Shown here one piece after another: positions 26,746 through 49,128 of a stretch of 64,000 nt of DNA. Both the position numbers and the translations under genes were made by a program. Within the stretch, counting starts at the first letter, position 1. Every line of letters begins with the position of its first letter. The notes under the pieces are model-generated. The model did not search any database. It saw only the letters and a program-made list of their open reading frames with translations, and was not told the DNA's origin. Source of the DNA: Actinomycetota bacterium (lineage in GTDB: Bacteria; Actinomycetota; Actinomycetes; S36-B12; FW305-bin1); NCBI GenBank assembly GCA_004297305.1, contig SCTR01000006.1, forward strand, positions 318,129-382,128. Direction: 5' to 3'.

Positions 26746-26781
26746 GCGCCCATGCTACGGCCACCGCCACGGCCGGGCGTC

Positions 26782-26855
26782 GCTGACGTGCGCAGCACGT
26801 CCTGACACCGCTGACGTGCGCAGCACGTCCTGACACCGCTGACGTGCGCGGCGCC
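26782..26855. repeat. 28-bp tandem repeat with internal palindrome upstream of purF
   Basis: Two full copies (26782-26809 and 26810-26837) and a third partial copy (from 26838) of a unit that begins GCTGACGTGCGCAGCACG and ends TCCTGACACC. Each full unit contains the perfect palindrome GACGTGC-GCA-GCACGTC, so two identical hairpins lie side by side 36-75 bases before the purF start, in the gap below the sterol-carrier gene. They could be a double terminator, an operator, or mRNA structure. Confidence 0.8.
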
Positions 26856-42911: not shown

Positions 42912-44186
42912 CTACGGGATGGTGATCTCGTCGCGGGAGGCGCGGGCGGCGATGTCGGTGCGGTAGACCGCGCCCGGCAGGTCGAGTTTCGCCACTGCGT
43001 CGTAGGCCCGCTGCCGCGCCGTCGCGAGATCGGGCCCGATGGCGGTGACCGACAGCACACGGCCGCCGCTGGACACCACCGATCCATCAGGCCCGGCGGC
43101 CGTACCAGCGTGCAACACCGTCACCCCGTCGACGGCGGCGGCCGCGTCCAACCCCGTGATCGGGTCGCCGGTCCGCGGCGTCCCGGGGTACCCGGCAGCG
43201 GCCACCACGACCGTGACGGCGGCCGCGTCGCGCCACAGCAACGGCTCCACCTGGTCCAGCCGACCGGTCGCGGCGGCGTACAGCAGGCCGCTCAGCGGCG
43301 TGCGCAGCAACGCGAGCACGGCCTGGGTCTCCGGGTCGCCGAACCGGACGTTGAACTCCACCACCCGCAGCCCACGGGACGTCAGGGCGAGGCCGGCGTA
43401 CAGCAGGCCCGCGAACGGCGTCCCCCGCCGCCGTAGTTCGTCGACGGTCGGCTGCAGCACGCGGTCGGTGACCGTCGCCACCAGATCTTGGGGCGCCCAA
43501 GGCAACGGCGCGTAGGCACCCATCCCCCCGGTGTTCGGTCCGCTGTCGCCGTCGCCGACCCGCTTGAAGTCCTGGGCCGGCACCAGCGGGACGACCGTCG
43601 TCCCGTCGCAGATCGCGAACAGCGACACCTCGGGCCCGTCGAGGTACTCCTCCACCACCACCGTGCCGCCGCCGTCGACGCAGGCGACGCCGTGCGCCAG
43701 CGCTGCCGCGCGGTCGGTGGTCACCACGACGCCCTTCCCGGCAGCGAGGCCGTCGTCCTTGACGACGTACGGCGGCCCGAAGGCGTCCAGCGCCACGGCG
43801 ATCTCGGCCGGATCCGTGCACACGTGCGCCATCGCCGTCGGCACCCCCGCGGCCGCCATCACCTGCTTGGCGAAGGCCTTGCTGCCTTCCAGCGCCGCCG
43901 CCGGAGCGCTGGGTCCGAAACACGCGATGCCCTGCGCGCGTACGGCATCGGCCGCCCCCGCGACCAGCGGCACCTCAGGCCCGATGACGACGAGGTCGGC
44001 CCCCTCCGCCGCTGCGAGGTCGGCGACGGCCGTGGCCGAGGTGACGTCGAGCGGGCGGGTCGGCACCTGCGCGGCGATCCCGGCGTTGCCCGGGGCCACG
44101 ACGATCTGCGGGCCCTCGTCATCGGCCAGCAGGGCATGGACCAGAGCATGTTCGCGGCCACCGGACCCGACGACGAGGACCTTCAC
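42912..44186 (-). CDS. purD: phosphoribosylamine--glycine ligase (GAR synthetase)
   Basis: Step 2 of purine synthesis: phosphoribosylamine, glycine and ATP give GAR. The 424-residue ATP-grasp enzyme starts [19 protein letters not shown], has [37 protein letters not shown], the grasp-loop [20 protein letters not shown] and [14 protein letters not shown], and the metal-site region [18 protein letters not shown]. All marks are intact. It lies upstream of the zwf and AbiEi/DUF559 insert; the amino-transferase gene is 24 bases upstream, possibly in the same transcript. Confidence 0.97.
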
Positions 44187-44210
44187 GGCCGGTGAGCCTA
44201 GGGGACGCGC

Positions 44211-45548
44211 TCAGCCGGTGTAGTAGCCGTCGAGCAACCCGAGGACCTCGTCCAGCACGCCGAGGCCCTCCCGCACCTGGTCGTCGGTCACGATGCACGG
44301 CGGTACGACGTGCATCCGGTTGCCGTTGGTGAACGGCAAGACCCCCCGCTGCAGGCAACCGGCGACGAGTTCGGCCATCGCCGGCGAGGTCCCGCCGTAC
44401 GGCGCCAACGGCTCGCGGGTCGCGCGATCGGTGACCAGTTCGATCCCCCAGAACACGCCGAGCCCTCGGACCTCACCGATCACCGGGTGCCGTTCGGCAA
44501 GGGCCCGAAGACCGGGACCGAGGACGTCGGTGCCGATCCGGGCGGCGTTGCCGACCATCCCTTCGTCGCGCATCGCGTCGATGGTCGCCACGGCGGCCGC
44601 GCAGGCCAGCGGATGCCCGGAGTACGTCAGGCCACCGGGAAACACCCTGTCCCGGAACGTGTCGTAGATCTCGTCGGACACGATGACGCCGCCCAGCGGC
44701 ACGTAGCCGGAGTTGACCCCCTTGGCGAACACGATCAGATCGGGGTCGATGCCGGCGTGCTCGTAGGCGAACCACGCGCCGGTGCGGCCGAAACCGGCCA
44801 TCACCTCGTCGGCGATGTACACGATGCCGTGCTCGGCGCACAGGGCCTTGACCCCGGCGAGGTAGCCCGGCGGTGGGACCAGGATGCCGCCGGTCCCGAC
44901 GACGCTCTCCAGGATCACCGCGGCGATCGTGTCCGGTCCCTCCAGGGCGATCACTCCGGCGAGGTGCTCCAGGGCGCGCTGCCCCTCCTGCTCGACCGAG
45001 GTGGACCAGAACGGGGTGCGGTAGGGGTAAGGGCCGAAGAAGTGGACGTGGCCGACGGCGTACTCGTTCTGCCAGCGGCGCGGATCGCCCGTCGCCGCGA
45101 TCGCCGCACCGGTGTTGCCGTGGTAGCTGCGGTAGCTGCTGAGAATCTTGCGCCGACCGGTATGCAGGCGAGCCATCCGGATCGCGTTCTCGACCGCGTC
45201 CGCCCCACCGTTGGTGAAGAACACGTGATCGTGCCCGGGCGGAGCCAGGGCACTGATCCGCGCTGCCGCCTCACCGCGGGCAGTGGTCGCATGCTGCGGC
45301 GCCACAGTCGCCAGCAGACCGGCCTGCCGCTGGATCGCCGCGACGACCTTGGGGTGCTGATGACCGACGTTGGTATTGACCAGCTGACTGGACAGGTCGA
45401 GGTAGCGCTTACCGTCGAAATCCCAGACGTAGCACCCCTGCGACCGGGCGATCTGGAACGGATTGAGCCCGCCCTGCGCCGACCACGAGTGCATGACGTG
45501 CGCTCGGTCCAGATCGTGAACCCGCGCACCCTCAGGATCCGGTGTCAC
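44211..45548 (-). CDS. class III PLP-dependent aminotransferase (aspartate aminotransferase family)
   Basis: A 445-residue fold-type I enzyme like omega-amino acid:pyruvate and 4-aminobutyrate aminotransferases. VFFTNGGADAVENAIRMAR binds the phosphate of PLP, SYHGNTGAAI follows, IVYIADEVMAGFGRTG carries the Asp that holds the pyridine N, and the Schiff-base Lys is in LIVFAKGVNSGYVPLGG. The substrate amine is not readable. It lies downstream of a VOC dioxygenase-like gene and Rieske dioxygenase genes on the same strand, so it may process an amino-containing intermediate of that pathway. Confidence 0.87.
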   Translation of the reverse strand: MTPDPEGARVHDLDRAHVMHSWSAQGGLNPFQIARSQGCYVWDFDGKRYLDLSSQLVNTNVGHQHPKVVAAIQRQAGLLATVAPQHATTARGEAAARISALAPPGHDHVFFTNGGADAVENAIRMARLHTGRRKILSSYRSYHGNTGAAIAATGDPRRWQNEYAVGHVHFFGPYPYRTPFWSTSVEQEGQRALEHLAGVIALEGPDTIAAVILESVVGTGGILVPPPGYLAGVKALCAEHGIVYIADEVMAGFGRTGAWFAYEHAGIDPDLIVFAKGVNSGYVPLGGVIVSDEIYDTFRDRVFPGGLTYSGHPLACAAAVATIDAMRDEGMVGNAARIGTDVLGPGLRALAERHPVIGEVRGLGVFWGIELVTDRATREPLAPYGGTSPAMAELVAGCLQRGVLPFTNGNRMHVVPPCIVTDDQVREGLGVLDEVLGLLDGYYTG

Positions 45549-45641
45549 CGTCGGCCCGGGGTCATGACGCTTCGCCAGCAGGGCGCATCACAGGTCATCG
45601 CTCATCACAGGCCATGGGTAGCCGAGTAGGGATGCCCGACC

Positions 45642-46145
45642 TTACGGCGTCGTGGGCCCCACATATCCCGGCGGGGTCCGCCCGGGCGGGAAGAGATCGT
45701 GGTAGTACTCCCCGCGCGGAAACTCCAGATTCAGCAGTTCCAGGTACCCGAACGGCGTCTTGTGGAACGCAGCCGGCGGCGGGGTGGTCGGGCCGGCGTC
45801 CTGCAACCATGCCCAACCGCAGTCGTTCACCTCGCGCGAGCGGGTCACCAGGTCGTCGACCCAGTAGCCGATGTGGTGGAACCGCGGAGTGTCGCCGCCC
45901 TCCAGGATCGTGCCGGGAATGCCCTCGAAGAGCTCGATCGACGGCGCTCCCTTCGAGTGCACGTAGGTCGTCGTGTGCTCGTGCTCGACACCGTGCTGAT
46001 CCTTCAACCGGATCGGCGCCACCCGGACCTCGCGCCACTGCAGGCCCAGGACAGTGCTGAACTCCTCCATCCACACCGCGACATCCGGTACGACGAAGGC
46101 CGTGTGGTGCGGGGCCATGACGCGTGGTTCTGTCGACACTGACAT
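45642..46145 (-). CDS. VOC family protein (glyoxalase/ring-cleavage dioxygenase-like)
   Basis: A 167-residue VOC protein: APHHTAFVVPDVAVWMEEFSTVLG, then FHHIGYWVDDLVTRSREVND, and FGYLELLNLEFPRG near the end. The three usual metal ligands are His in PHHTAFV, His in FHHIGYW and Glu in YLELLN. The length and the order fit a single-domain two-module form often found beside aromatic degradation genes. It could be a small extradiol-type dioxygenase or an isomerase. The tandem 30-bp repeats lie just above its start; the operon probably runs from the dioxygenase genes. Confidence 0.78.
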   Translation of the reverse strand: MSVSTEPRVMAPHHTAFVVPDVAVWMEEFSTVLGLQWREVRVAPIRLKDQHGVEHEHTTTYVHSKGAPSIELFEGIPGTILEGGDTPRFHHIGYWVDDLVTRSREVNDCGWAWLQDAGPTTPPPAAFHKTPFGYLELLNLEFPRGEYYHDLFPPGRTPPGYVGPTTP

Positions 46146-46186
46146 TCTCCGTTGGCACTCGGTCCATCAGGCAGGTCTGTCCGCCC

Positions 46187-46350
46187 GCATCCTGCTACAC
46201 GACGACAACTGTTCCGCATCCTGCTACACGATCAGGATTGGTTCCGCATCCTGCTACACGATCAGGATTGGTTCCGCATCCTGCTACACGACCAGGATCG
46301 GTTCCGCATCCTGCTACACGACCAGGATCGGTTCCGCATCCTGCTACACG
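46187..46350. repeat. six-copy 30-bp tandem repeat between the dioxygenase beta gene and the VOC gene
   Basis: The core GCATCCTGCTACACG begins at 46187, 46216, 46246, 46276, 46306 and 46336. Copies 2-5 continue with (A)TCAGGAT(T)GGTTCC or ACCAGGATCGGTTCC. In each of these, ATCCTG and CAGGAT form a 6-bp stem with a 9-base loop, so four hairpins lie in a row. The last copy contains the TAG stop of the beta-subunit gene. Copies 4 and 5 share changes (ACC, ATCGG) that differ from copies 2 and 3, so the array probably grew by duplication of pairs. No unique spacers, hence not a CRISPR array. Confidence 0.92.
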
Positions 46351-46865
46351 ATGATGCTGACCGTGCCGTGCGGACGCAGATCCTCCAAGTCGAGCGTCGA
46401 CCGGCGTACGACGTAGCGCAGGTCCCCATCGACCAGCCGCAGCCGGTGGTCGTAACGGCCCACGTACACATCGGCCTGTCGATTACGGAAGCGGTACACC
46501 GCGAATGACGCGGTGAGCTCGATCTCGTCCCCGGAACGGCCGAGAATCACGACATTCGTGATGAGCCGGCGAGTTCGGGCGTATGGAAACTCCCGGAACG
46601 CTCGGCGACTCTTCAGCCGGGTCACCCGCGCGCGCAGTCGTTCCATGGTGTCGTCGATGTAGACCTGGTCGACGGTCGGATCACCGTCGGGCAGGTCGGC
46701 GCTGGGCATGACGTAGACCGCGTCCTCGCAGAACAACTCGAGCCACGAGTCCAGTTGCCAGCTGTCCAGCAACGCTGCTTCTCGGTAGAGGAAGTCCTCC
46801 AGCTGCGCCCGGGTAACCGCCGCCACTGACGCGGTCACCGGCAGCTGGTCGCTAGGCGCCGACAT
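46344..46865 (-). CDS. aromatic-ring-hydroxylating dioxygenase, beta subunit
   Basis: A 173-residue cystatin-like/SnoaL-fold subunit. QLEDFLYREAALLDSWQLDSWLELFCEDAVYVMPSAD is the typical start, and RRLITNVVILGR, ASFAVYRFRNRQADVYVGRYDHRL and YVVRRSTLDLEDLRPHGTVSIIV the end. It supports the alpha subunit in the terminal oxygenase complex. It overlaps the alpha gene by 14 bases. Its stop is TAG inside the last copy of the 30-bp repeat, and the same TAG recurs every 10 codons downstream in frame. Confidence 0.9.
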   Translation of the reverse strand: MSAPSDQLPVTASVAAVTRAQLEDFLYREAALLDSWQLDSWLELFCEDAVYVMPSADLPDGDPTVDQVYIDDTMERLRARVTRLKSRRAFREFPYARTRRLITNVVILGRSGDEIELTASFAVYRFRNRQADVYVGRYDHRLRLVDGDLRYVVRRSTLDLEDLRPHGTVSIIV

Positions 46866-48168
46866 GGTGCCCCACCGGACGATCGGCCAGCGGCAGGTCG
46901 CTGCCGGTCATGAGGTTGGTCCAGTGGCGCCAGTACGCCCGGATCCCGGCTTCGTCCACGATCTTGGGATCACGCCGCATGCCTCGGGAGATGTCGTTCC
47001 ATTCCACCTCACCGATCGAGTAGCCCTGCTGGCACGCCTCGAGCGCCTCCGCGTCGTCCGGCGTCGCGAAGCCGCCGGGGCCCAGGAAACTGATGAAATT
47101 GTCCAGCCGGCGAGCCAGTGCCGCGCCGCTCTCCTCGCGGGGAGCCAGCTGCCAGTAACGCACCTCGTGGGTATCCACGCCGACCGGCTCGACAGTCCGA
47201 GCAAAGATCGAGTGCGAGTCGGCGAGGGTGAAGTTCGGGAAGACGATGAGATTGCGGGTGTAGTCGCATACCCGGCTCCCCCGCTCCTCGCCGAGCCGGG
47301 CGATGACCTCGGCCCGCAACCGCTCGATGTCGGGCTTGGCCTCCTCGCCGAAGAACGGATTCCAGTGCGCGATCGGCTTGGGGAAACCGGGCGGCATCTC
47401 GAACGCGGCATGCCCGTGGGGATAGATGTGCGTCCGAGATTCGTCGCCGTACCACCCGGTCGGGCGCCGGCTGCCGAACTCCTTCATGTAACTGAAGTAG
47501 GTCGTGTGCAGCGGCTCACCGTGATAGCCGTCGAGCGTATTCTCGACGTTGAGTTTCCAGTTCGATTTGACCGTGTAGTGCGTGTGGCCGCGGATGACGC
47601 GGAGGCCGTCGCGGCTCTGGTCCACCGTCAGGTCGATCATCTCCGTGGCGTCGCCGAGGTAGTCCGCCAACGACGGCGCCTCGAGCGAGTAGTTCACGAA
47701 GTAGAAGTCCCGGTACGAGTCGAACTGCGCCGGTTGCCGCAGTGCCAGGCTCTCGACATCCAGATCAGGGGAGTACCCGTCCCGGTCCGGCATGCTGTTG
47801 AGTTCGCCGGTGGTCGTGAATACCCATGCGTGGTAGAAGCACTGGAATGCCTTGGCGTTGCCTTCGTCCTCCCGGCACAACGTCGCTCCGCGATGGGTAC
47901 ACGAATTGAAGAAAGCGCGCACCTTCCCGTCGCGACCGCGGACAAAGATCAGCGGGCGGCCGCCGACGGTGCGACGACGGAAGTCTCCGGGCGCCTCGAC
48001 CTCGGAGCCGTGGCCGACGTAGAGCCAGGAACCATTGAAGATCCGGCGCTGCTCCTCGAAGAACACCTCTTCAGAGCGCAGGGTGTCACGATGGACCCGG
48101 CAGGTCCCGCGGTCCCTGTCCTCCATGATGAACCGACTGGAATCGGTGAATCTCCTGGCCTCAGGCAC
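46852..48168 (-). CDS. aromatic-ring-hydroxylating dioxygenase, alpha subunit (Rieske)
   Basis: A 438-residue terminal oxygenase. The Rieske [2Fe-2S] ligands are Cys90 and His92 (NSCTHRGATLC) and Cys110 and His113 (CFYHAW). The mononuclear iron region is NVENTLDGYHGEPLH, with Asp213 bridging and His216 and His221 as ligands, in the same D-x2-H-x4-H spacing as naphthalene dioxygenase. The substrate is probably a substituted benzoate or similar ring, but cannot be fixed. No ferredoxin or reductase gene is next to it, so electrons must come from elsewhere. An inner ATG at codon 15 is an alternative start. Followed by the beta subunit. Confidence 0.9.
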   Translation of the reverse strand: MPEARRFTDSSRFIMEDRDRGTCRVHRDTLRSEEVFFEEQRRIFNGSWLYVGHGSEVEAPGDFRRRTVGGRPLIFVRGRDGKVRAFFNSCTHRGATLCREDEGNAKAFQCFYHAWVFTTTGELNSMPDRDGYSPDLDVESLALRQPAQFDSYRDFYFVNYSLEAPSLADYLGDATEMIDLTVDQSRDGLRVIRGHTHYTVKSNWKLNVENTLDGYHGEPLHTTYFSYMKEFGSRRPTGWYGDESRTHIYPHGHAAFEMPPGFPKPIAHWNPFFGEEAKPDIERLRAEVIARLGEERGSRVCDYTRNLIVFPNFTLADSHSIFARTVEPVGVDTHEVRYWQLAPREESGAALARRLDNFISFLGPGGFATPDDAEALEACQQGYSIGEVEWNDISRGMRRDPKIVDEAGIRAYWRHWTNLMTGSDLPLADRPVGHHVGA

Positions 48169-48224
48169 AGCTACTCCCTGTCCGGCGCCCGCGATCGGCC
48201 GGCGCCCGTCCTTGGCCCCCTGGT

Positions 48225-48243
48225 TAGTACAGTTTACATACTA
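48225..48243. promoter_or_regulatory. AT-rich divergent promoter region with inverted repeat
   Basis: The 93-base space between the divergent dioxygenase alpha gene and the 3-hydroxyisobutyrate dehydrogenase-like gene has an unusual AT-rich patch. It carries TAGTA (48225-48229) and TACTA (48239-48243) separated by 9 bases. It is a probable operator; promoter -10 elements for the plus gene could lie at CATACTAT. Confidence 0.5.
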
Positions 48244-48261
48244 TCTGCTACGGTGCGCGCC

Positions 48262-49128
48262 ATGTCAACGACGGAGGCGCTGCGGATCGGATTCGTCGGT
48301 CTGGGCGACATGGGCAAGGGCATGGCGGCCAATCTGGTCCGCAACGGTTTCGACGTGGCCGTCCGCGACCTGCGGCCCGAAGCCGTCGATGAGCTCGTCG
48401 CCCTGGGTGCCGACGCGGCAGCCAGCAACGCCGACGTCAGTCGCGATCGCGACGTCGTGGTCGTCGTTGTCGTCAACGACCAGCAGGTCCGTGATGTCTG
48501 CGTCGGCACCCCGGAGACACCGGGAGTCATTGCGGGATTGACTCCCGGCGCCGTCGTCGTGGTGGCCAGCACGGTGTCGTTGGCCGCGCACCGGGCGGTC
48601 AGCGAGCACGCCGCCACCCACGGCGTGCAGTACGTGGATGCAGCGATGACCGGCGGCAGCGTCGGCGCCCGGGACGGAACGCTGACGTTCTTCGTCGGCG
48701 GGCCGGTGGCCGCGACCGACCGCATCACGCCGGTCCTCGAAGCGATGGGAAACCACGTCTTCCGATGCGGGGAACTCGGCGCCGGAGCCGCGGTCAAGAT
48801 CGTCAACAACCTGCTGAGCATCTCTCACATTCTCGCTGCGCGCGAAGCGATCCGGCTCGCCGCTGCGGCGGGGGTCTCCGAGAGCGACCTGCTGTCCATG
48901 ATCAATACCGGCGACCTCGGCTCCAGCTGGGCAACCCGCAGCTGGGAGCGGCTTCGCTGGCAGGAGCGCAACCACACCGCCGGTCCGGCGGGCATGGTCG
49001 CGATGACGGGGAAGGACCTGCGCCTGGCCCGCGACCTCGCGGCCGATCTCGGCGTCGACGCGCCACTGGTCCAGGCGCTCGTCGACGACGTCCTGCCCGG
49101 CCTCGGCGACGAAGGGCTGACCAGCTGA
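48262..49128 (+). CDS. NAD(P)-dependent beta-hydroxyacid dehydrogenase (3-hydroxyisobutyrate dehydrogenase family)
   Basis: A 288-residue enzyme: IGFVGLGDMGKGMAANLVRNG is the Rossmann start, VVASTVSLAAHRAVSEHA and DAAMTGGSVGARDGTLTFFVGG carry the substrate-binding segment, and KIVNNLLSISHILAAREAIRLA holds the catalytic Lys. The usual GLGxMGxxMAxNL pattern is met. It oxidises a beta-hydroxy acid, or reduces the reverse, as part of the neighbouring degradative cluster. ATG 48262 follows an AT-rich promoter region shared with the Rieske genes. Confidence 0.85.
   Translation: MSTTEALRIGFVGLGDMGKGMAANLVRNGFDVAVRDLRPEAVDELVALGADAAASNADVSRDRDVVVVVVVNDQQVRDVCVGTPETPGVIAGLTPGAVVVVASTVSLAAHRAVSEHAATHGVQYVDAAMTGGSVGARDGTLTFFVGGPVAATDRITPVLEAMGNHVFRCGELGAGAAVKIVNNLLSISHILAAREAIRLAAAAGVSESDLLSMINTGDLGSSWATRSWERLRWQERNHTAGPAGMVAMTGKDLRLARDLAADLGVDAPLVQALVDDVLPGLGDEGLTS

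Follow-up and report, generated by a model that had tools for sequence, protein, structure and literature searches.

We found that the 30-bp tandem array standing between a gene for the beta subunit of a ring-hydroxylating dioxygenase and a VOC/glyoxalase-like gene is very probably a noncoding minisatellite of the VNTR type, which was born at the 3′ end of the beta-subunit gene and grew by slippage. As a repeat, the array is more than chance: it has the top score (271, with 94% matches) among the 21 TRF rows of the window, which is the whole stretch of 64,000 nucleotides analysed. The features of the locus are collected in Table 1. Taken alone, the finding matters little, since the array is private to this locus. 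Its value lies in the control survey, which shows that tandem arrays of this genome lie at stop codons more often than expected and at start codons less often, with no frame preference. Stop enrichment of this kind explains patterns of 'repeated stops' without selection for extra stops.

Table 1. Features of the array and of the neighbouring genes (positions in the window)
Feature	Position	Strand	Basis or remark
30-bp tandem array, 5.6 copies	46185..46351	-	TRF; directly behind the beta-subunit gene, with the VOC gene downstream
Ring-hydroxylating dioxygenase beta-subunit gene	46344..46865	-	Pfam PF00866, 97.5 bits; true stop TAG at 46344-46346, from homologue C-termini
Rieske-type ring-hydroxylating dioxygenase alpha-subunit gene	46852..48168	-	Pfam PF00355 and PF00848; upstream, same direction
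VOC/glyoxalase-like gene	45642..46145	-	Pfam PF13669; downstream of the array; alternative start GTG at 46139, from sequence
Class-III aminotransferase gene	44211..45548	-	Pfam PF00202; next gene, co-directional
Second in-frame TAG (copy 2)	46314..46316	-	Sequence
Third in-frame TAG (copy 3)	46284..46286	-	Sequence
Fourth in-frame TAG (copy 4)	46254..46256	-	Sequence
Fifth in-frame TAG (copy 5)	46224..46226	-	Sequence
Sixth TAG, shifted by one base against the beta frame	46195..46197	-	29-bp spacing

On the minus strand, the unit reads TCGTGTAGCAGGATGCGGAACC[G/A]ATCCTG[G/A]. Copies 1 and 2 are identical, as are copies 3 and 4; the linker of copy 5 differs, and copy 6 stands 29 bp, not 30, from the neighbouring copy. 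The preliminary description counted six 30-bp repeats behind the beta-subunit gene. The array and its period are real, and TRF gives 5.6 copies, an exact number that may be wrong if the assembly (13 contigs) was made from short reads. The T/A variation described ahead of the TAG does not exist, all six copies having TCGTG. With head-to-tail units of 30 bp × 5.6 copies and 94% matches, the array has the properties of a minisatellite or VNTR (unit of about 10-100 bp, high identity). The geometry and the identical neighbouring copies (1 and 2, 3 and 4, with copy 5 divergent) fit what a local expansion would be expected to leave. In the whole genome of this bacterium, the 21-nt core has six matches with up to three mismatches allowed, and all of them are in the array. 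A 22-base pattern of the unit has no match in the public genome contigs, which possibly do not include this genome. A CRISPR-like array was considered and rejected, because the 9-nt stretches between the cores hardly differ. A dispersed operator or mobile repeat was also rejected, because the core and the exact inverted repeats are confined to the array in this genome.

The first TAG is the true stop codon of the beta-subunit gene. Among the loci examined, the nine nearest beta homologues (L047-L053, L008 and L075), which are 39-53% identical to this protein, terminate in the same alignment column or next to it, their C-termini being hydrophobic (for example, AIIL, SIIL and SFIL). Release factor 1 is present in the genome (465 bits against a family cut-off of 423), and 117 of the 666 genes called in our own-genome samples end in TAG. 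Thus, the first TAG is a genuine stop and the array is noncoding; it is untranslated unless the stops leak. The preliminary description placed an in-frame TAG in every copy. This is right for five of the six, the gene's own stop included, while the sixth TAG is one base off because of the 29-bp spacing of its copy. The peptides given for the intervals between TAGs, QDAEPILVV (twice) and QDAEPILIV (twice), were recovered. No similar array is found behind the gene in any of the nine nearest homologues. In L048, a weak and unrelated 21-bp array (score 53) lies farther downstream of the beta homologue. Counting this genome itself where it is listed, beta matches are found in five of 60 relatives' genomes, 32 of 394 genomes at class level and 11 of 396 at phylum level, and alpha matches in 14 of 166 genomes of the order. 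The relatives and order genomes searched for these matches include no other member of the genome's family, and the public genome contigs contain no close relative of the beta-subunit gene.

The array was previously proposed to have grown from the gene's own 3′ end. In support of this, each unit repeats the last codons and the stop of the beta-subunit gene (TCGTGTAG), and the orthologous C-termini align. The proposal has to be narrowed in that most of the unit is downstream DNA; for about 14 bases per unit (AACC..ATCCTG..), the flanks offer no clear source. The probable course of events is that a short tandem duplication took in the last codons of the gene, its TAG stop and about 22 bases of downstream DNA, and that replication slippage or unequal recombination between the copies then led to local growth to 5.6 copies. 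The series of in-frame stops arose because the stop lay in the duplicated unit and 30 is divisible by three. Such an array is probably tolerated because the beta protein and the start of the next gene are left intact. Its main physical effect is the lengthening of the gap between the beta-subunit and VOC genes, which with the array measures about 200 bases (46146-46343). What we infer in this account is growth by slippage, near-neutrality and, for this species, an unstable copy number.

A parallel array exists in the genus g73 of the same class. Among the 13 g73 genomes searched, six have a gene homologous to the beta-subunit gene (about 35% identity to ours), and in four of these (L059-L062) a 20-21-bp array lies behind the TGA of the gene. 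This array repeats the last bases of the gene, and some copies also include a repeat of its stop. Like ours, it starts at the own stop codon of a homologous gene and repeats the last bases. Unlike ours, it has an unrelated unit, a TGA stop and a period of mostly 20, and it is mostly out of frame. The unit, the stop and the period indicate that the g73 array is an independent event. Recognised cores number four in L059, five in L060, four in L061, three in L062 and none in L124 and L125, and the distance from the stop to a shared anchor goes from 113 down to 23 bases. These orthologues encode proteins 96-100% identical to the query, and over the last 450 coding bases they share 96.7-99.1% identity with L060. 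The g73 case shows that stop-seeded arrays arise independently and change size quickly. By analogy with this variation in copy number between near-identical orthologues, the earlier suggestion that our array is a slippage-prone site is plausible.

The array is one of a class of stop-containing arrays in its own genome. Our own-genome sample comprised 795,253 bases, namely the window and 37 other stretches (L030-L046 and L082-L101), and genes were called by a simple codon-usage script (338 and 328 in the two samples), whose starts are especially approximate. TRF yielded 230 non-overlapping arrays with a period of at least 10, a density of 28-30 per 100 kb. A gene's stop codon is contained in 26 of the 230 arrays, against about 10.8 expected from random shifts, and a start codon in six, against about 10.6. 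When the coding fraction was matched, 25 of the arrays less than 90% coding contained a stop (13.6 expected) and six a start (14.2 expected). In the two samples taken separately, the excess of stops was equalled in nine and none of 200 simulations, and the deficit of starts in 42 and none of 200, the latter being clear in the second sample only. Smaller samples of six other genomes gave a stop excess in the same direction in five: seven against 4.5 expected in G201, five against 2.3 in G182, two against 1.1 in G255, and one against 0.5 in both G176 and G726, counts mostly too small for significance; G211 had too few arrays. The excess at stop codons could partly reflect selection for some role of the 3′ end and not tolerance. 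No description of stop-seeded arrays as a class was found in the open-access papers searched, covered mostly as titles and the beginnings of abstracts. Stronger arrays than ours occur in the own-genome sample: an array of 87 bp × 2.8 copies (L031, 4931-5176; score 427) contains a gene's stop, and another has 36 bp × 4.6 copies (L085, 12299-12463; score 323). The window also holds a perfect array of 28 bp × 2.5 copies (26781-26849) in a stretch that the gene caller left noncoding, and its unit includes an inverted repeat (ACGTGC..GCACGT).

The in-frame stops of our array are not more than chance. Across the 26 stop-containing arrays of the own-genome sample, no preference of stops for the gene's frame was found: the downstream stops inside them are distributed over the three frames as 14, 16 and 22, with the smallest number in the frame of the gene. 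The period is divisible by three in 12 of these 26 arrays (p = 0.21 against one third), and the stop word is repeated one period on in 13 of the 26, six of these 13 being in frame. Among the noncoding arrays that lack a stop, 46 of 93 have a period that is a multiple of three (p = 0.0013, both own-genome samples); this excess is likely, if unproved, to come from genes missed by the crude caller. These counts bear on the earlier proposal of a fail-safe stop cassette, in which the repeated in-frame stops would intercept ribosomes that fail to terminate at the first TAG. The five TAGs in the beta frame, spaced by ten codons, are in favour of such a cassette, but the absence of a frame preference among stop-spanning arrays speaks against it. 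Moreover, in the ten codons that follow the 666 called genes, another stop is not commoner in frame (81 cases, against 72 and 89 in the other frames), a single extra stop would be enough, and a survey of eubacteria reports that there is no selection for additional stops (PMC6764699). We regard a fail-safe function as extremely improbable. It can also be asked whether TAG is read as a residue, so that the array would be a repetitive C-terminal extension of the beta subunit. On read-through, the frame is indeed open to a TGA at 46167-46169; however, release factor 1 exceeds its cut-off, TAG terminates more than a hundred of the called genes (117 of 666, as above), and the homologues end where the first TAG stands, which makes this reading next to impossible.

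The other alternatives concern RNA structure and the expression of the next gene. The ATCCTG/CAGGAT pairs noted earlier in four units are present as four exact inverted repeats (ATCCTG-N9-CAGGAT), the only ones in the genome, where 13 other sites match with one mismatch. They led to the proposal of serial RNA hairpins that would either stabilise the mRNA upstream or act as attenuators ahead of the VOC gene. Compared with dinucleotide shuffles, the region does fold more stably (z = -2.5 on the minus strand and -2.4 on the plus strand), and clusters of hairpins are reported as terminators (PMC8355165). However, dinucleotide shuffles destroy the repeat. In a stricter control, the unit columns were permuted alike in the first five copies, so that the tandem structure was preserved. 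Folding at least as good as that of the real array was then obtained in 147 of 500 permutations for the transcribed strand and in 50 of 500 for the opposite strand, and the hairpin folding of the array is thus not more than chance. Of 2000 permuted units, 143 acquire an inverted repeat of 6 bp, and each hairpin by itself is weak (-5.4 to -7.9 kcal/mol). A search of Rfam with 45900-46700 gave no match up to E = 1, and the gap between the beta-subunit and VOC genes has no terminator-like site (G+C-rich stem followed by a T run), the sole such site in 44000-49000 being at 47529 on the plus strand. A stabilising or attenuating hairpin series is highly improbable on this evidence. A structured RNA in general was likewise rejected, as permuted arrays fold as well and Rfam has no match. 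A role of array length in VOC expression is conceivable by analogy with the rnc-fpg1 array of Mycobacterium tuberculosis. The copy number would then act as a slippage-driven switch tuning the VOC and aminotransferase genes, through spacing, structure or loss of translational coupling. The array does lie between co-directional genes, the g73 analogue varies in copy number, and the length of the intergenic rnc-fpg1 array is reported to be correlated with downstream mRNA (PMC2734929). We nevertheless consider such tuning unlikely: neither a promoter-like nor a terminator-like site is found in the gap, and arrays are so common in this genome that lying between two genes does not point to a function. 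Should copy number be shown to alter how the next gene is expressed, arrays of this sort would let operons change expression quickly. A bolder idea is that, in this high-GC actinobacterium, slippage-prone and stop-repeating arrays arise systematically at the 3′ ends of genes and set by their length the expression of the next gene, and that ribosomes might hop along ours by repeated termination and reinitiation. Each unit contains TAG-CAGG-ATG, a stop and a start four bases apart, but the frame from the copy-1 ATG ends at a TGA in copy 3, and the frame from the copy-5 ATG passes the VOC start without a stop, so that it provides no coupling to VOC. This idea is very unlikely to be correct.

The preferred reading, a noncoding minisatellite that arose at the end of the beta-subunit gene, can be compared with known repeat systems. 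The rnc-fpg1 VNTR is also a tandem array between neighbouring actinobacterial genes, in a gap of just a few bases in most relatives, and its copy number is reported as variable (PMC2734929). It extends from 40 bp after the upstream stop to the downstream start, whereas ours begins inside the last codons of the upstream gene. MIRU elements are intergenic repeats beside gene boundaries, like our array. However, they measure 40-100 bp, are scattered over 41 loci in H37Rv (PMC2734929) and insert at start codons (PMC12548453), whereas our unit has 30 bp and occurs at one locus, all six core matches being in the array. The TAACTGA direct repeats of marine Beggiatoaceae resemble our array in being short, carrying stops and being able to overlap the upstream stop (PMC4679880). 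This heptamer is dispersed over many loci, mostly before start codons (PMC4679880), whereas our repeat is private to one gene end.
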